Shown piece after piece: positions 40,503 through 46,510 of a DNA stretch of 64,000 bases. A program made the position numbers and the translations under genes. Source of the stretch: Nitrospinota bacterium (GTDB taxonomy: Bacteria > Nitrospinota_A > UBA7883 > JACRGQ01); the NCBI GenBank assembly GCA_029881495.1, contig JAOUMJ010000009.1, forward strand, positions 1 to 64,000. The letters run 5' to 3'. Under the pieces are notes generated by a model. That model ran no database searches. It had not been told where the DNA came from and worked only from the letters and a program-made list of their open reading frames with translations. Within the stretch, counting starts at the first letter, position 1, and each line of letters opens with the position of its first letter.

Positions 40503-42152
40503 TTAGATCAGGTATCGCCTTATCCTTGGAATGAAATCGTTGATAACGATCGGTTTTGTAGCGAAGTCGTCGGCGCCCAAGCGTACTACTCTGTCACGTG
40601 TTTCCATATCGGAATTCGAGGTAAGAATTATGACCGGTGTATGGGCTGTATCGGGATTGCTTTTAATGAATTCAAGAACCTTCAGACCGTCCGTCTTCGG
40701 CATCTGCAGGTCGGTTATCACGAGGTTTGGTTTATGTTTGGCAATTTTTTCCATAGCTTCTTCACCGTCATTTGCTTCGAGTACAACAGTGTTCAGGCTT
40801 AATATTCTTCCGCGAAGGAGCGTGCGGATAAATTCCTCGTCATCGACAATAAGTACAACCGGTTTCACTTCAGGCAGTTTCGCGGTAAAAACGCTTCCCT
40901 TTCCAGGTTTGGAATCGATCTCCAGCACACCGCCATGCGCAAGCATGATGTCGTAACTAAGGGGGAGTCCCAGCCCTGTGCCTGTTTCACCGGCTGTACC
41001 TTCTGTTGATGTTTTCCGGTCGTAACTGAAGAGATGATTGATCCTCTCCGGTTGTATGCCGGGCCCGGTATCGGAAACGGCGATTGCGCAAGGATCCCCT
41101 TCCGGCACGAAGATCCTGATGGTATCCCCCTTTGCGCAGAATTTAATAGCGTTGGAAATAAGGTTTTGTATCACTTCCTGAAAAAGGGCTTCATCCGCGT
41201 ATATGCGGGTACGCGTAGGAATTTCATGTTTAAGTATTATCCCCTTTTTCCCGGCGAGAAGTTCCAGATCGTGCGAGACCTTTAACGCAATAATTGAGGC
41301 GTCCAGAAACCGCAGTTTTGGCGATATCTTTCCGCTTTTAATGCGGCTCACGTTGAGAATTTCCTCTATGAGTTTTATCATGCTGTTTCCGCTTTTTATG
41401 GCCCGCGCAACGATATCCCTCGAAAAGTCATCCAAACCTGCGTTTTTGCCATCGTTCAATAGCTCAAGGAATCCGATCATTGTGGAGAGCGGAGAGCGAA
41501 GATCGTGCGCCACCAATGAGATGAATTTATCTTTTAACTTTGTGGCTTCTTCAGCTTCGTTTTTCGCGAGGCGCAATCTTTCTTCGTTTTTTTTCCTTTC
41601 GGTTATATCCCTTATTATCGAGATAACACCTTTTTTGTGTTCCTCGTATTCAACGAAGCTTGATTTGACCTCAACAGGAACGTCATTGCCGTTTTTGCAG
41701 ACAAGTGTTCCCTCAAACAGCGATACACTACCCCCTTGGGCGTCTTTCAATGCTTTATCGGCAAGCTTGTACTGCTCTTTGGCGATGAAGTCGGTAAATT
41801 TTTTCCCTGAAAACTCCTCAAATTCATGCCCGATGATTTGAGCTAACTGCCTGTTCGTTTCGACTATATTTCCATCCGCGTCGGTAAGACATATCCCGTC
41901 CCGCGCGTCATGCACCAGTGTGCGGTATTTGTTTTCGGATACTATCAAGGCGTCTTCCGCTCTTTTTCGCTCTTCTGTAATTGCGGAAAGCTCCTCGGCG
42001 AGCATGTTAAGTCCCGTGAGGATCGCGTCGAGATCGTTTCCTTCATCGGAGGGAATTCCGCGCGCGTCAAGTTCGCCGGCGGCGAGACGGAATATGAGGT
42101 CGAGAATGTTGTCCATTCCCTTTTCCGATAGATGTTTTACCATTTTATCCAT
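40503..42152 (-). CDS. Soluble hybrid histidine kinase ending the STAS-like array
   Basis: 549 residues in order: HAMP-like module (about 8-57, with GELDARG and LNMLAEELS), PAS (about 70-185), HisKA with the phospho-His in FISLVAHDLRSPLSTMIGF, HATPase (NAIKFCAKGD, DTGPGIQP, GETGTGLGLPLS) and a receiver with Asp in LVITDLQMPKTDG. It has no membrane segment, so input must come through protein partners or PAS. The ATG at 42152 overlaps the stop of the last STAS-like gene (ATGGATAA), so it is coupled to the array. The HAMP-like module is also found alone in two mini-genes upstream. Confidence 0.9.
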   Translation of the reverse strand: MDKMVKHLSEKGMDNILDLIFRLAAGELDARGIPSDEGNDLDAILTGLNMLAEELSAITEERKRAEDALIVSENKYRTLVHDARDGICLTDADGNIVETNRQLAQIIGHEFEEFSGKKFTDFIAKEQYKLADKALKDAQGGSVSLFEGTLVCKNGNDVPVEVKSSFVEYEEHKKGVISIIRDITERKKNEERLRLAKNEAEEATKLKDKFISLVAHDLRSPLSTMIGFLELLNDGKNAGLDDFSRDIVARAIKSGNSMIKLIEEILNVSRIKSGKISPKLRFLDASIIALKVSHDLELLAGKKGIILKHEIPTRTRIYADEALFQEVIQNLISNAIKFCAKGDTIRIFVPEGDPCAIAVSDTGPGIQPERINHLFSYDRKTSTEGTAGETGTGLGLPLSYDIMLAHGGVLEIDSKPGKGSVFTAKLPEVKPVVLIVDDEEFIRTLLRGRILSLNTVVLEANDGEEAMEKIAKHKPNLVITDLQMPKTDGLKVLEFIKSNPDTAHTPVIILTSNSDMETRDRVVRLGADDFATKPIVINDFIPRIRRYLI

Positions 42153-42561
42153 TCCTGAATCCTTCCAGCCATTCCAACGCGCTCTTTTCGGAGGTAAAAA
42201 CCTTGGTGGGGATAACGGATTTTCCAAGGGATAAAAAGAGGTTTCCGAATAGGCGGCTTAATGTTGATTGAACCAGATAGGCTGAAGCAATGCCGGCTCT
42301 TGGTCTATCATCTCTTCCAAAATATTTTCGCACGTCCCTTGGAAATGTTTTCATGCTGCGGATATCGATAAGTGCCGGGTAAAGTTTTCCCTTTGATTTC
42401 TCAAAGATAAGTTCGATAAGTTCCCTCAAGTCGCTAACGGTGCCTTCAACATCCTGTTTGACAAGTATTCTAAGGATTCCGTCCTCCTGAAACCAGAAGA
42501 TCGCGATCCTGGTTTTAAAAACCGAAATCCCTTCGGGTGGGGAGATTGAATCATGCGTCAT
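42145..42561 (-). CDS. STAS/SpoIIAA-like array protein 9
   Basis: A 138-residue soluble protein, the copy nearest the kinase. It shares the array pattern: a strand near IFWFQEDGILR, DIRSMKTFPRDVRKYFG in the middle, LFGNLFLSLGK and the ending VFTSEKSALEWLEGFRNG. The mid motif has T where most copies have S. It overlaps gene 8 by ATGA and the kinase by 8 bp. The fold suggests an anti-sigma-antagonist-like partner; this is inference. Confidence 0.75.
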   Translation of the reverse strand: MTHDSISPPEGISVFKTRIAIFWFQEDGILRILVKQDVEGTVSDLRELIELIFEKSKGKLYPALIDIRSMKTFPRDVRKYFGRDDRPRAGIASAYLVQSTLSRLFGNLFLSLGKSVIPTKVFTSEKSALEWLEGFRNG

Positions 42562-42971
42562 TTAAAGACCTCCAGCCATTCGATCGCTTTTTCTTCAGAT
42601 GTAAAGAGTCGTATAGGGTGGTTTGGCCTGTTGAAACCGATAAAGAAATTCCCTATCAACATAGATACTTTGGAACCTCCAAGCAGAGCGGCGGCAACTA
42701 AGGAAACGGCGCGTCCTTCGTTTTGATAAATGTTGCGCGCACTCTTCGTAATCGATCGTATATTGCGTCCATCGACTAGAATAGGGCATCTTTTATTTTC
42801 CTCAATATTCATCTGATTAATGAAGGAAAGCATCGCTTCCACGTTTTCCTTCGCCGTGTCTTCGGTCTCCTCCGCGCTGGGCAAAAAAGTCTGGCGTAAA
42901 ATTCCATCTTCGCCAAGTGAAATGTTGGACGTTTTGGTGAGTATGTCCGGCAATTTATTCTTGTTTTTCAT
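42558..42971 (-). CDS. STAS/SpoIIAA-like array protein 8
   Basis: A 137-residue paralog. The middle motif is VDGRNIRSITKSARNIYQNE (I to G in the DIR motif), and the ending is MLIGNFFIGFNRPNHPIRLF then EEKAIEWLEVFK. It is one of the more divergent copies. ATGA overlaps join it to copies 7 and 9. Confidence 0.75.
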   Translation of the reverse strand: MKNKNKLPDILTKTSNISLGEDGILRQTFLPSAEETEDTAKENVEAMLSFINQMNIEENKRCPILVDGRNIRSITKSARNIYQNEGRAVSLVAAALLGGSKVSMLIGNFFIGFNRPNHPIRLFTSEEKAIEWLEVFK

Positions 42972-43390
42972 ATGAATCCTTTCAACCAGTGTACCGCCTC
43001 CAGCTCGGAAGTAAAAATGCGAAAAGGCAATGTGGGTTTATTGAATTTCAGAAAAAAGTTTCCAATAACTTTTGTGGCTGGGGATGACGTTAGCAGTGCT
43101 ACCGAAGACCCGAAATTGGCTACTTCCTCCCCCGCATAATATTCACGCGCTTCCCTTGTGATTGATTTCAGTTGGCGGATGTCTATCAGCACCGGGCGTT
43201 TTATCCCTCCGCTTGCCTTCCAGACAGTCGCTACATTTTCCCTTGCGTGTTCAATCCTTTCCTCGGCTCCCTTGTGGTCTACCATCCAGATTATTCCGTT
43301 TTCGTCGAGCCAGATGTCGACTGTGTCGGTAACATGCTTGTCATAAGTTGTCATATCGGTATTAGTTGTTGCTGCCGGATTTAAGTTCAT
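42968..43390 (-). CDS. STAS/SpoIIAA-like array protein 7
   Basis: A 140-residue paralog: DIWLDENGIIWMVDH, then VLIDIRQLKSITREAREYYA and VIGNFFLKFNKPTLPFRIF, ending ELEAVHWLKGFI. It is close to the array consensus. The start at 43390 overlaps the end of the HAMP-like mini-gene by 29 bp; an in-frame ATG at 43354 is possible but has no Shine-Dalgarno. Confidence 0.78.
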   Translation of the reverse strand: MNLNPAATTNTDMTTYDKHVTDTVDIWLDENGIIWMVDHKGAEERIEHARENVATVWKASGGIKRPVLIDIRQLKSITREAREYYAGEEVANFGSSVALLTSSPATKVIGNFFLKFNKPTLPFRIFTSELEAVHWLKGFI

Positions 43391-43565
43391 TTTTTGCCTT
43401 TAGTTCTTCTATAAGCATGTTGAGAGCGGTAATTACGGCGTCAAGTTCGTCCCCCCTGGAAGAGGTATTGCCGCGAACATCGTAATTGCCGCTAGCAATA
43501 TTGAATATCAGCATGTATATCTCCTCAAGTTTGGGATTGTTTGATATTCTTGTCTTATATTTCAC
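43362..43565 (-). CDS. Stand-alone HAMP-like mini-protein H2
   Basis: A 67-residue protein starting at GTG behind AGAGGA, two bases after the stop of array gene 6. The core LIFNIASGNYDVRGNTSSRG and DELDAVITALNMLIEELKAK match the N-terminal module of the array's kinase and of many PAS-kinases, where it forms a HAMP-like helical pair. Having no catalytic part, it may be an adaptor or a competitor for the kinase dimer. Finding it as a separate cistron between STAS-like genes is unusual. Confidence 0.72.
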   Translation of the reverse strand: MKYKTRISNNPKLEEIYMLIFNIASGNYDVRGNTSSRGDELDAVITALNMLIEELKAKNELKSGSNN

Positions 43566-43567
43566 TT

Positions 43568-43963
43568 TTAAATTCCTCTCAGCCAGATTAGCGCGTCTTT
43601 CTCCGACGTAAAGAGTTTGATAGGGTATGTGGTCCTGTTGACCCTCATGAAGAAATTTCCTATTAGCCTGGTAAGTGGAGAGTCGACCAGTATGGCGCAA
43701 GCTTTGGTTATTTTGCTGGCTTCTTCCCCCGCGTAATATTCGCGCGCTTCCCTTGAAATCGAACTCATGCCTCTGCAATCTATCAGGGCGAGAGTTTTGC
43801 TGCCTCCGCAGAGTTCCGCGCAGGCGGCGATATTTTCAATAGCATCGGAAAGGCTCTCTTTTGAGTTCGGAAGGTTTACTCGGCGGCCGATGCCGTCGTC
43901 GCCAAGCCACTGCCTGGCGGTACGGGTAGTTATTATTCGGCTGTTGACGTTATTCATGTTCAT
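43568..43963 (-). CDS. STAS/SpoIIAA-like array protein 6
   Basis: A 131-residue paralog. RQWLGDDGIGRRVNLPNSKE, LIDCRGMSSISREAREYYAG (I to C in the DIR motif, K to S before the Ser) and LIGNFFMRVNRTTYPIKLF, ending DALIWLRGI. It is 31 bp after copy 5 and 2 bp before H2. Confidence 0.77.
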   Translation of the reverse strand: MNMNNVNSRIITTRTARQWLGDDGIGRRVNLPNSKESLSDAIENIAACAELCGGSKTLALIDCRGMSSISREAREYYAGEEASKITKACAILVDSPLTRLIGNFFMRVNRTTYPIKLFTSEKDALIWLRGI

Positions 43964-43994
43964 CCAGAGATATGTCTTTTAATCTTTTTCGTTT

Positions 43995-44375
43995 TCATAT
44001 GAAAAATCCCTTCAGCCACCCTGTTGCATCATTTACGTTTTGAAAAATCTTCAGCGGGTAGCTCGGTTTGTTAAGTCCTAGAAAGAAATTCCCTATGACA
44101 CGCGTTGTGGACGATTCGACAACTAGCGCCACTGCGTTACCCACGCGAGGCCTGTCGTCACTTGCGAAATATTGCCGAGCTTCCCTCGATATGGATTTAA
44201 GTTTGCGTATATCGATGCATACAGGCAATATTTCCCCGCCCCTGATTTTCAAAATGGTGCTGATTATCTCCTCTGCGTCCGCCAGGTCAACCTCGGCGTT
44301 TTCGTTTATATTTACGCGGCTGATATTGTTTTCATCTATACAGATGCAACTGACGCGCGTATTTATCGTATTCAT
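43995..44375 (-). CDS. STAS/SpoIIAA-like array protein 5
   Basis: A 126-residue paralog: INTRVSCICIDENNISRVNI, VCIDIRKLKSISREARQYFA and VIGNFFLGLNKPSYPLKIF, ending DATGWLKGFFI. Its ATG overlaps the stop of a truncated paralog fragment (ATGA), which suggests duplication at this spot. Confidence 0.77.
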   Translation of the reverse strand: MNTINTRVSCICIDENNISRVNINENAEVDLADAEEIISTILKIRGGEILPVCIDIRKLKSISREARQYFASDDRPRVGNAVALVVESSTTRVIGNFFLGLNKPSYPLKIFQNVNDATGWLKGFFI

Positions 44376-44452
44376 TGTTTTCTGGGTAGTTGGTTGCTAA
44401 ATTCATTAATCTGAATCACCGATACCCTTGTTTCAATTTGAAAGTCCCTCAT
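44372..44452 (-). pseudogene. Truncated array paralog, 26 codons
   Basis: An open frame MRDFQIETRVSVIQINEFSN plus six residues. The part IETRVSVIQINE is close to the N-terminal strand of copy 5 (INTRVSCICIDE) and copy 4 (IQTRIASIWLGN), then similarity stops. Its TGA overlaps the ATG of copy 5. I read it as the 5' remnant of a duplicated copy; it could instead act as a coupling leader. Confidence 0.5.
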
Positions 44453-44461
44453 ATGATTATC

Positions 44462-44653
44462 CTATTTTTCAGTTTCCTGTTTTGCTTTAAGTTCTTCAGC
44501 CAGCATATTAAGGCCGGTGATAATTGCATCCAGTTCGTCCCCTTTGTTGGATACTTCTGCGCGAGATTCCAGATCACCTTCGGCAAGGTTCATAATGAGG
44601 TCGATTATCCGGTTGAAGCGGGGGTCATTCTGATTTATTTTTTCCATCTTCAT
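44462..44653 (-). CDS. Stand-alone HAMP-like mini-protein H1
   Basis: A 63-residue protein: RIIDLIMNLAEGDLESRAEV then DELDAIITGLNMLAEELKAK, the same module as H2 and the kinase N-terminus. The ATG at 44653 overlaps the stop of array gene 4 by ATGA; an ATG seven codons earlier lies inside that gene. It is closer to the kinase module than H2 is (both read GLNMLAEEL). Confidence 0.75.
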   Translation of the reverse strand: MKMEKINQNDPRFNRIIDLIMNLAEGDLESRAEVSNKGDELDAIITGLNMLAEELKAKQETEK

Positions 44654-45057
44654 TTGAGGAAGCCTCCCAGCCATTGGAGCGCCGCGTTCTCGGTGTAAAA
44701 CAGTTTTGTAGGGATATTCGGTCTGTCAATTTTCAGGAAAAAATTTCCGATAGCTGATGTCAGCGGGGAGCCGACCAGAATGGCGCATGCCGGCCCCAGT
44801 TCCTGGGCGATGGATGCGTAATGCCTTCGCGCTTCACGGGTCGTGGATTTTATGTTTCTGATATCCGCAAGCGCGGGGTGTATTTTTTCAGGCGATAATT
44901 TCTTTACGGCGGATGAAAAGGCCTGGGCGTCCTCCAAGGTTTCATTTGAGTCAGGGCGGTTTACACAGCGGATTATCCCGTCATTACCAAGCCAAATGGA
45001 CGCTATGCGCGTTTGGATGACTTCGGACGCAATGTTCATGGTATTTTCAGTTGTCAT
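44650..45057 (-). CDS. STAS/SpoIIAA-like array protein 4
   Basis: A 135-residue paralog: ASIWLGNDGIIRCVNRPDSN, LADIRNIKSTTREARRHYA and AIGNFFLKIDRPNIPTKLF, ending NAALQWLGGFLK. ATGA overlaps join it to copy 3 upstream and H1 downstream. Confidence 0.78.
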   Translation of the reverse strand: MTTENTMNIASEVIQTRIASIWLGNDGIIRCVNRPDSNETLEDAQAFSSAVKKLSPEKIHPALADIRNIKSTTREARRHYASIAQELGPACAILVGSPLTSAIGNFFLKIDRPNIPTKLFYTENAALQWLGGFLK

Positions 45058-45464
45058 TTCATAAATCCTTTAAGCCATTTCATTGCCGACGCTTCGGTAT
45101 GAAAAAGTCTGGCAGAAAAATCTGGCTTATTGATTTTCAGGAAAAAATTACCGATGGCGGAGCTCATCGGAGAGCCGACCAAAATTGCGCAGGCAAGACC
45201 GATATATTTTCCTTCCTTCGCGAAATATGCGCGCACCTCGTGATTTGTCTTTTTCACGTTTCTGATATCAATTAGCCCGACGGAATTGCCGCCTGGAGCA
45301 AATTTTTTCAAGGCGTCGATAAATTCCTTCGCATCATCCAGCGTCTGCTCCTCCCCGGGGAGAAATTGCGACCAGACGATGCCGTAGTCGTCGCTCCAGA
45401 TTTTCCATACGCGAGTTTTTACTACCTCTTGCGTATCTTTTTCCTGGGCGGAATGAGGACTCAT
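45054..45464 (-). CDS. STAS/SpoIIAA-like array protein 3
   Basis: A 136-residue paralog: VWKIWSDDYGIVWSQFLPGE, LIDIRNVKKTNHEVRAYFAK and AIGNFFLKINKPDFSARLF, ending SAMKWLKGFMK. The mid Ser is replaced by Lys (KKT). Its ATG overlaps the stop of small ORF s2. Confidence 0.77.
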   Translation of the reverse strand: MSPHSAQEKDTQEVVKTRVWKIWSDDYGIVWSQFLPGEEQTLDDAKEFIDALKKFAPGGNSVGLIDIRNVKKTNHEVRAYFAKEGKYIGLACAILVGSPMSSAIGNFFLKINKPDFSARLFHTEASAMKWLKGFMK

Positions 45465-45601
45465 TGCATGCGCCTTTCAACTATTTCTCTTTTGATGGTT
45501 AGCGTTTTTGATATTGTAAAAATATTCTCTAACAAACATCCTTCAGATTTTGCCCGTTTAAAGATCTCGTTGGCAAATACCATCGCAGTATTCATTTCCA
45601 T
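45461..45601 (-). CDS. Small coupled ORF s2, 46 residues, unknown
   Basis: The start ATG overlaps the stop of array gene 2 (TGATG) and its TGA overlaps the ATG of array gene 3 (ATGA). The frame exactly fills the gap between two array genes. The product is probably helical and basic at the end (LTIKREIVERRMQ), with one cysteine. No family recognised. The exact coupling is the main evidence that it is translated. Confidence 0.5.
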   Translation of the reverse strand: MEMNTAMVFANEIFKRAKSEGCLLENIFTISKTLTIKREIVERRMQ

Positions 45602-46005
45602 CATTCCATCCCCAAGAGCCAGTCGGAGGCTTTTTCTACGCTGTGAAAAAGCTTGACCTTATAAAGAGGGGTGTTTACCCGAATGAACATATTGCCGATT
45701 ACCGCGGTTATGGGAGAGCCTACAAGAATAGCGCACGCGCCTCCGTTGGCCGCCTCGAAAACCTCCTTGCTTGCGTAATAGTCGCGTGTCTCCTTGTCTG
45801 TAGATTTAAGCCCCCTGATATCTATAAGAGTATGGTGTTTTTCATTGCCGGTGATAGATCTTATCGCCGATATCATTTCCCTGGCATTTTCAATCCGTTC
45901 TACGACTCCTTCTAATACCGTGTACCTGATTATCCCGTTATCATCTCTCCAGACCTTTCCGTTTCTGAGAACGATTTCAGTTTTTTCAGTTGAACCATTC
46001 AGCAC
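45601..46005 (-). CDS. STAS/SpoIIAA-like array protein 2
   Basis: A 134-residue paralog starting at GTG: GKVWRDDNGIIRYTVLEG, LIDIRGLKSTDKETRDYYAS and VIGNMFIRVNTPLYKVKLF, ending KASDWLLGME. It overlaps the end of small ORF s1 by 7 bp. Confidence 0.76.
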   Translation of the reverse strand: MLNGSTEKTEIVLRNGKVWRDDNGIIRYTVLEGVVERIENAREMISAIRSITGNEKHHTLIDIRGLKSTDKETRDYYASKEVFEAANGGACAILVGSPITAVIGNMFIRVNTPLYKVKLFHSVEKASDWLLGME

Positions 46006-46124
46006 GATAATTTCACCCTTCCGGATTCAAAATTATTTCTGGCAGACTGTTCATATGACTTCGAATCTTTCATGTCATGTTGTTTGGATTGTATCTTCTG
46101 ACTGGAGGTCATGCGAAACTTCAT
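45999..46124 (-). CDS. Small coupled ORF s1, 41 residues, unknown
   Basis: The ATG overlaps the stop of array gene 1 (TAATG) and the frame ends 7 bp inside array gene 2. The product is polar and rich in K, S and Q (MKFRMTSSQKIQSKQHDMKD and on), probably disordered. No family recognised. It may be a genuine micro-protein or a coupling device that carries ribosomes to gene 2. Confidence 0.45.
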   Translation of the reverse strand: MKFRMTSSQKIQSKQHDMKDSKSYEQSARNNFESGRVKLSC

Positions 46125-46510
46125 TATATGAACCCTTTCAGCCATGAAATTGCGGAGGATTCGGATGAAAATAGTCTGAGCGGGAAAATCGTCTTGTTGA
46201 TCCGCATATAGAAATTCCCGATTACTTTTGTTAGCGGGGAGCCGACGAGGATTGCGCACGCTTTGGTTACCTCAGCGGTTTCCGGTCCGGAGTAGTATTC
46301 TCGCGCGTTTTTGGTAATCGATTTGATATTTCTGATATCTACCAGCGCGACCCCTTTTTTTCCATCCATCAACCTTGCTCCAGCGGCGATATTTTCCATG
46401 GCGTCCTTCAATGCTTCTTCGGCGCCAGGGTGGCTTTCCATCCTGATGATTCCGTCATCTCCCAGCCAAATTCTTGTTGTGCGGCAGTGAACGTCAACAG
46501 CTACCATCAT
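46124..46510 (-). CDS. STAS/SpoIIAA-like array protein 1 (first of operon)
   Basis: A 128-residue paralog: TRIWLGDDGIIRMESHPGAE, LVDIRNIKSITKNAREYYSG and VIGNFYMRINKTIFPLRLF, ending SAISWLKGFI. It is the 5'-most gene of the array. The 252 bp upstream (46511-46762) separate it from a divergent membrane-protein gene and should hold the operon promoter, which I could not define with confidence. Confidence 0.77.
   Translation of the reverse strand: MMVAVDVHCRTTRIWLGDDGIIRMESHPGAEEALKDAMENIAAGARLMDGKKGVALVDIRNIKSITKNAREYYSGPETAEVTKACAILVGSPLTKVIGNFYMRINKTIFPLRLFSSESSAISWLKGFI

Follow-up and report, generated by a model that had tools for sequence, protein, structure and literature searches.

Why should a signalling array encode, as genes of their own, two further copies of the amino-terminal piece of its kinase and little else? 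The question is raised by a stretch of 64,000 nucleotides (nt) from a Nitrospinota bacterium (assembly GCA_029881495.1, contig JAOUMJ010000009.1, positions 1 to 64,000; hereafter the window), in which two mini-genes, H1 and H2, sit among nine genes for STAS-like proteins of the DUF7793 family, upstream of one hybrid histidine kinase (HK). H1 and H2 encode only the HAMP piece that in many bacteria directly trails a STAS-like gene; probably, therefore, the two are loose docking elements belonging to a signalling cassette as yet undescribed. The full form of this answer—that H1 and H2 would be free-standing copies, expressed and under selection, of a docking module that links DUF7793 proteins to output enzymes—draws on gene order and on analogy with known systems, and we regard it as evenly balanced between right and wrong.

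By sequence and predicted fold, H1 and H2 are free-standing, soluble HAMP domains. Five properties of the two can be read directly: the HAMP sequence, the predicted fold, the lack of a transmembrane part, the coupling with DUF7793 genes, and the acidic LN..EE subtype. H1 scores 31.7 bits against the PF00672 cut-off of 25, H2 (24.5 bits) and the module of locus L019 (24.1 bits; see below) fall slightly under it, and the strict pass is that of H1 alone. A preliminary description of the stretch had taken both for separate mini-genes of the HAMP-like module at the kinase N-terminus, and had their positions and lengths right (H1, 63 amino acids (aa); H2, 67 aa). H1 and H2 are 49% identical to each other, and H1 is 46% identical to the kinase N-terminus (52% over 52 residues in the module search); good matches to the module in the whole genome are H1, H2, and the kinase N-terminus only (E = 7.5e-36, 6.8e-14, and 4.8e-12; the next at 0.43). 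The genome has 17 HAMP matches, of which the 15 besides H1 and H2 all lie in open frames of 210-871 aa, so that the only mini-genes are H1 and H2. An AlphaFold2 (AF2) model of H1, built with 29 aligned modules, has a mean predicted local distance difference test (pLDDT) of 92.4 and a predicted template modelling (TM) score (pTM) of 0.76, with helices at residues 11-24 and 40-62 in a helix-connector-helix fold; the top 25 Foldseek matches of this model in the PDB are all HAMP-containing structures, Af1503 first (probability 1.00, E = 0.08, TM-score 0.71), and none reaches E = 0.001, as is usual with a chain so short. Neither H1 nor H2 has a transmembrane helix before the HAMP: a short polar stretch precedes the first helix (read by eye), and lengths of 63 and 67 aa leave no room for a membrane segment. 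Nor is there a concatenated HAMP chain in H1, H2, or the array kinase, each of which has one unit.

The array runs on the minus strand from 46510 to 40503 and consists of nine DUF7793 genes (S1-S9), H1, H2, and the hybrid kinase. The genes that the preliminary description called STAS-like proved to be DUF7793 (PF25056) throughout, all nine scoring above the cut-off, and two more lie elsewhere in the genome. The features are as follows.

46124..46510, minus strand: S1, DUF7793 (profile match PF25056)
45601..46005, minus strand: S2, DUF7793 (profile match PF25056)
45054..45464, minus strand: S3, DUF7793 (profile match PF25056)
44650..45057, minus strand: S4, DUF7793, upstream of H1 (profile match PF25056)
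44654..44673, minus strand: ribosome-binding-site-like GGGAGG for H1, in codons of the S4 C-terminal WLxGF motif
44462..44653, minus strand: H1, free-standing HAMP domain by sequence and model, 63 aa, ATG start (PF00672, AF2, Foldseek)
43995..44375, minus strand: S5, DUF7793, STAS fold in the AF2 model (profile match PF25056, AF2)
43568..43963, minus strand: S6, DUF7793, upstream of H2, also a weak PF11964 SpoIIAA-like match (profile match)
43566..43585, minus strand: ribosome-binding-site-like GAGAGG for H2, in codons of the S6 C-terminal motif
43362..43565, minus strand: H2, free-standing HAMP domain by sequence, 67 aa, GTG start (PF00672 near the cut-off, module search)
42968..43390, minus strand: S7, DUF7793 (profile match PF25056)
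42558..42971, minus strand: S8, DUF7793 (profile match PF25056)
42145..42561, minus strand: S9, DUF7793, directly upstream of the kinase (profile match PF25056)
40503..42152, minus strand: array hybrid histidine kinase, 549 aa, HAMP module-PAS-HisKA-HATPase_c-REC (domain profiles)
41970..42125, minus strand: HAMP module of the kinase N-terminus (52% identity to H1 over 52 residues)

Neighbouring genes overlap by 4 nt at S3-S4, S4-H1 (H1 over the S4 stop), S7-S8, and S8-S9; H2 starts 2 nt past S6 and shares 29 nt with S7; and S9 extends into the kinase, whose start was taken as ATG 42152 (549 residues) rather than TTG 42227. The translational linkage of both mini-genes to STAS-like genes that had been described at the outset holds with small corrections: at S6-H2 a 2-nt gap takes the place of an overlap, and H1, with 86 nt between it and S5, is coupled on its upstream side only. 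The ribosome-binding-site-like sequences of several genes, H1 and H2 among them, lie within the WLxGF codons of the preceding DUF7793 gene (by eye), and we infer that both mini-genes are translated.

Such tight packing, with the overlaps on either mini-gene, would also suit coupling spacers, that is, small frames whose translation serves chiefly to hand ribosomes on between successive DUF7793 genes; an open reading frame (ORF) of 47 aa between S2 and S3 (45604-45461, minus strand), which has a 4-nt overlap on each side and no Pfam or NCBIfam match, would fit this reading. However, H1 and H2 keep the HAMP signature positions, and other S genes couple directly, spacer-free; we consider it very improbable that the two are spacers in the main. 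The 47-aa ORF is possibly a third mini-gene of the array. Another ORF, of 26 aa (44452-44372, minus strand), lies between H1 and S5, has a 4-nt overlap with the S5 start, and resembles that start (IETRVSVIQINE vs. INTRVSCICIDE; 0 of 300 shuffles as good); it could be either a DUF7793 copy cut short or a leader peptide.

The mini-genes could instead be debris. The module mostly heads a long enzyme, and frame-broken enzymes do occur at loci L026 and L101 (draft genomes), as would be expected if H1 and H2 were remnants of lost kinases. The preliminary description had named the sign by which such remnants would be known, similar sequence continuing out of frame; we searched for it and the outcome was negative: in the three frames behind H1 (86 nt), H2, and the L019 module there is no kinase-like sequence above chance, with 112, 52, and 131 of 300 shuffles as good, and the same shuffle test of the stretch behind H2 does recover the DUF7793 gene S7, as a control. 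Pairwise comparison of H1, H2, and the kinase module gives a proportion of synonymous differences (pS) of 0.74-0.82, i.e. saturation, and a proportion of replacement differences (pN) of 0.24-0.32, i.e. few replacements; third positions differ in 27-28 of 42 codons vs. 6-12 of 42 for second positions. These pairwise values average over lineages, and a very recent loss of function would escape them. Moreover, H1 has the best module score in a set of 66 genomes picked for the presence of the module or DUF7793, and a 63-aa counterpart stands behind a DUF7793 gene in L019 (Margulisiibacteriota; see below). Given that kinase-like sequence does not trail the mini-genes, that replacements are few vs. 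saturated synonymous sites, and that ribosome-binding-site-like sequences are in place, we rejected kinase remnants, an explanation that is largely refuted and to which we attach almost no weight.

What the module does keep, across genomes, is its company. A scan of GTDB genome contigs with an alignment of H1, H2, and the kinase module, made without any DUF7793 information, returned 29 loci (“module-first” loci) from some ten phyla in all; the lineages, as given by record title or tree label, include Actinomycetota, Bacteroidota, Alphaproteobacteria, Myxococcota, Gemmatimonadota, Acidobacteria, Aminicenantes, Bipolaricaulota, Calditrichota, Margulisiibacteriota, and Oligoflexia. A DUF7793 ORF lies directly upstream in 23 of the 29, with its end between 4 nt beyond and 229 nt short of the point where the detected module begins; two of the six other loci, L026 and L037, are near a contig end (357 and 200 nt), and a third, L039, has a divergent DUF7793 gene ~1.4 kilobases away. 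DUF7793 scores above the cut-off in 24/25 genomes of the module-first set vs. 1/60 among the relatives of the window, the one being the window's own genome. The reverse search agrees: DUF7793 was matched in 28/282 and 20/345 genomes of two phyla, and among the loci fetched for a DUF7793 profile hit (“DUF7793-first” loci, some of which share a genome or overlap) the module follows downstream in 15/27 and 16/27, respectively. A module match at E = 0.001, in some cases weak, is present in 28 of the 40 genomes that joined the set of 66 for DUF7793 alone. Draws from other phyla gave the module in 2/297 genomes (the phylum of L016) and 1/100 (that of L022) at E = 1e-5, and in 5/247 (that of L027) at E = 1e-4, four of these weak; in every draw, one of the matched genomes is that of the naming locus itself. 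Viral and plasmid sequences gave no match to the module. This HAMP type is thus strongly, not exclusively, tied to DUF7793, and the earlier suggestion that the module bridges STAS-like proteins to the kinase finds strong comparative support in gene order. In a mirror-tree comparison, DUF7793 distances correlate with module distances (r = 0.66 over 55 pairs, 0.43 for distant pairs; best of 1000 permutations 0.11), a correlation for which shared descent accounts equally well as binding.

The module is set apart by its sequence, too. At the position of the DExG glycine, the 29 aligned modules have D in 26 and E in 3, so that the position is acidic in 29/29 and the canonical DExG does not occur; in the LNxLxEE stretch, N, L, E, and E never vary. 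The same position, read by eye, is acidic in 27 of 28 distinct modules of the DUF7793-first loci, which were detected with a profile built from the module-first set, and is Gly in 13, E in 1, and Q in 1 of the 15 ordinary HAMPs of the window's genome (by eye). According to earlier work, DExG distinguishes membrane-linked from soluble poly-HAMPs and reflects the input mode (PMC3570549), so that acidic HAMPs with a soluble partner would represent another type of input.

The outputs behind the DUF7793-HAMP head vary, whereas the head is constant: examples by Pfam are HK-REC (L016), HK (L020 and L027), GGDEF-EAL (L017 and L029), PAS-AraC (L033), and a PAS sigma-54 activator (L041), and the enzyme is headed by a tandem pair of modules in L020, L027, and L073. 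Arrays of DUF7793 genes occur elsewhere as well, with six genes in L022 (5340-7971, Bipolaricaulota) and four in L027 (1916-3633, Aminicenantes); behind each array lies a single enzyme that carries one or two modules. At L086 and L088, DUF7793 genes precede a large frame with another common N-terminus (ADLSLFVRLFEELDVAVAIW-like) and without the HAMP module, possibly a second docking type. In L170 the parts stand in one chain: an ORF of 811 aa contains two SpoIIAA-like stretches, the second of which is also DUF7793 (31.4 bits vs. a cut-off of 26), hydrophobic segments, PAS, and HK; a divergent HAMP-like stretch, FEKVIKVLGQFTAGNF ... DEYDQILLHARVLGSELRHSTVSSD, was read by eye between the SpoIIAA-like and PAS/HK parts, and no profile called it HAMP. 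L170 supports a functional link between DUF7793 and a kinase of such kind, not the exact contact.

A different use of H1 and H2 would be to join the kinase HAMP in mixed dimers or in stacks of bundles and so to change the kinase dimer directly, with DUF7793 merely nearby. Pairing with the kinase module to tune its dimer was also the first idea of the preliminary description, and it is weakened by L019. HAMP domains in general are dimeric four-helix bundles; H1 and H2 resemble the kinase module (46-52% identity for H1); and extra modules stand in tandem in the kinase chain at other multi-DUF7793 loci, the three named above. However, the tie that crosses phyla is to DUF7793, not to a second HAMP, and L019 (Margulisiibacteriota) has a 127-aa DUF7793 gene, 3 nt, a 63-aa module gene, and then a convergent gene, with no second module found in its genome (completeness not given). 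Mixed dimers therefore seem to us unlikely. L019 is an independent free-standing case from a different phylum and, the window apart, the sole clean example, which answers the call of the preliminary description for stand-alone modules near STAS-like genes in other genomes. The short module frames in L026 and L101 were rejected as free-standing modules, being frame-broken enzymes in draft genomes, as was a frame of 181 aa in L043, which continues into PAS-like sequence (by eye).

As a pair alone, with a convergent gene behind, L019 is also what one would expect if DUF7793-H1 and DUF7793-H2 were complete two-protein complexes acting on some other target than the array kinase, and the window's genome does have two more DUF7793 genes that lie apart from any module (C17:32093-32431 and C10:66360-66692; L008 and L010). 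H1 and H2, however, share their tightly packed gene run with the kinase, and we think such separate complexes distinctly unlikely. The L008 and L010 proteins could also feed the array kinase.

Several observations weigh against the reading of H1 and H2 as free-standing docking modules. Clean free-standing modules number only three, two of them in the window: none beyond H1, H2, and L019 was found in the 66 genomes or in the phyla of L016 (297 genomes), L019 (74), L022 (100), and L027 (247). L030, L032, and L044 carry the module without an adjoining DUF7793, and 23 of 54 DUF7793-first loci lack the module, so that the association is not exclusive from either side. Differences between module-linked and solitary DUF7793 proteins show no concentration in the SiaC-type docking face, i.e. 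helices 2 and 3 (Mann-Whitney p = 0.80). In favour of that reading, by contrast, at least two modules occur in 4/9 loci with at least two DUF7793 genes vs. 0/44 loci with one (Fisher p = 4e-4, the window being one locus), a count that was made post hoc over loci that are related and not independent; it suggests that H1 and H2 may be the in-trans counterpart of tandem modules.

The DUF7793 proteins themselves are STAS-like in predicted structure. The model of S5 (pLDDT 93, pTM 0.87) matches mostly STAS/SpoIIAA-like structures in the PDB (2q3l, 4qtp, SpoIIAA of 1tid, and RsbS), and its match to the SiaC structure 6kkp is weak (TM-score 0.46). A solved and uncharacterised family member exists, 3BL4 (family profile E = 1.9e-29); it superposes poorly on the DUF7793 model (TM-score 0.37, root-mean-square deviation 15) despite 28% identity, which a strand- or domain-swapped crystal dimer would explain. 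In a tree of 69 DUF7793 domains, S1, S2, S3, S4, S6, and S7 group together (support 83/90), S5 and S9 cluster with L016 (98/97), and the separate placement of S8 is weakly supported; the array thus appears to have grown partly through local duplication and not in one simple tandem burst. DUF7793 was found in none of 59 other genomes among the window's relatives and in none of 23 others of the phylum (overlapping sets), so that its vertical history cannot be traced; acquisition of the array by transfer is plausible. Before helix 2, where a SpoIIAA/RsbV partner switch would have a conserved phosphorylatable Ser, S/T is frequent, not fixed (sequences and alignment by eye). None of 300 relabellings of module-linked and solitary DUF7793 reaches the observed difference between them, with R64 in 58% vs. 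7% and R67 in 96% vs. 64%; the labels are coarse, and we do not use these figures as support. The literature searched, outside which most subscription journals fall, contained neither the word DUF7793 nor a function for it, and no description of a HAMP paired with a STAS-like partner or of free-standing HAMP proteins so paired. It is the link between DUF7793 and HAMP that is new.

If H1 and H2 are docking modules, a DUF7793 protein would dock on the dimeric HAMP bundle that heads the output enzyme and shift its conformation or its dimer, much as SiaC acts on the stalk of SiaD. The single hybrid kinase would receive its input from nine diverged DUF7793 proteins; as small HAMP dimers, H1 and H2 would bind DUF7793 proteins via the same face and either buffer them or compete for them with the kinase (partner switching). 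The most speculative part is which DUF7793 protein would choose which module, and whether kinase activity would go up or down.

Two soluble partners of output enzymes invite comparison: SiaC, whose partner kinase is SiaB, and RsbT, which, unlike DUF7793, is not known as a STAS protein; we know of no free-standing gene for the linker of RsbU. Among the array ORFs there is no separate kinase gene of the SiaB type, the hybrid kinase being the sole kinase there. In Pseudomonas aeruginosa, the SpoIIAA-like protein SiaC attaches through its helices 2 and 3 to the helical stalk of SiaD, a cyclase, and promotes the active dimer of that enzyme (PMC8457831). A small SpoIIAA-like protein and a dimeric output enzyme would be common to both systems, the docking of DUF7793 being suggested by gene order and L170; the two differ in that SiaC belongs to another family, with a regulatory Thr (PMC8457831), and in that the putative docking element here is a HAMP domain, the outputs vary, and docking modules are also free-standing. 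The dimeric helical linker of RsbU becomes ordered when RsbT binds it, and linkers exchangeable across phosphatases, kinases, and cyclases have been proposed in the same work (PMC12143880); a soluble partner that acts on a helical dimer at the head of an output enzyme is likewise what we propose. Canonical HAMPs combine membrane-segment coupling with DExG, and divergent poly-HAMPs keep one glycine and occur in chains, Af1503 and Aer2 being among the examples of both kinds in the passages cited (PMC3570549). The H1 model shares its fold with the Af1503 HAMP structures, whereas H1 and H2 differ from canonical and divergent HAMPs alike in being single, soluble, and acidic at the DExG glycine.

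Elsewhere in the window, a second hybrid kinase (62112-60286, minus strand) shares 38% identity with that of the array across 493 residues and has another N-terminus, without the HAMP module; a protein of 459 aa (31414-30035, minus strand) with many CxxCH-like motifs is likely a multihaem cytochrome (by eye).

A wider proposal, which we put forward tentatively and think somewhat more apt to fail than to hold, is that DUF7793 and the acidic HAMP constitute a general, undescribed input cassette of bacteria: a further HAMP class that would be signalled by a soluble STAS-like protein, in place of an adjacent HAMP or a membrane helix, and would serve kinases, cyclic di-GMP enzymes, and transcription regulators, with free-standing HAMPs such as H1 and H2 as in-trans partner-switch modules and one kinase weighing many DUF7793 inputs. 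HAMP domains have been studied mainly as relays from membrane helix to output, and a soluble acidic class mostly encoded behind a STAS-like gene would add protein docking as an input. If true, the proposal would give a testable role to DUF7793, a functionally uncharacterised family in which one structure, 3BL4, has been solved; H1 and H2, as natural HAMP proteins of very small size, would allow direct measurement of the input; and the array would illustrate in compact form how numerous inputs may come together on a single kinase.

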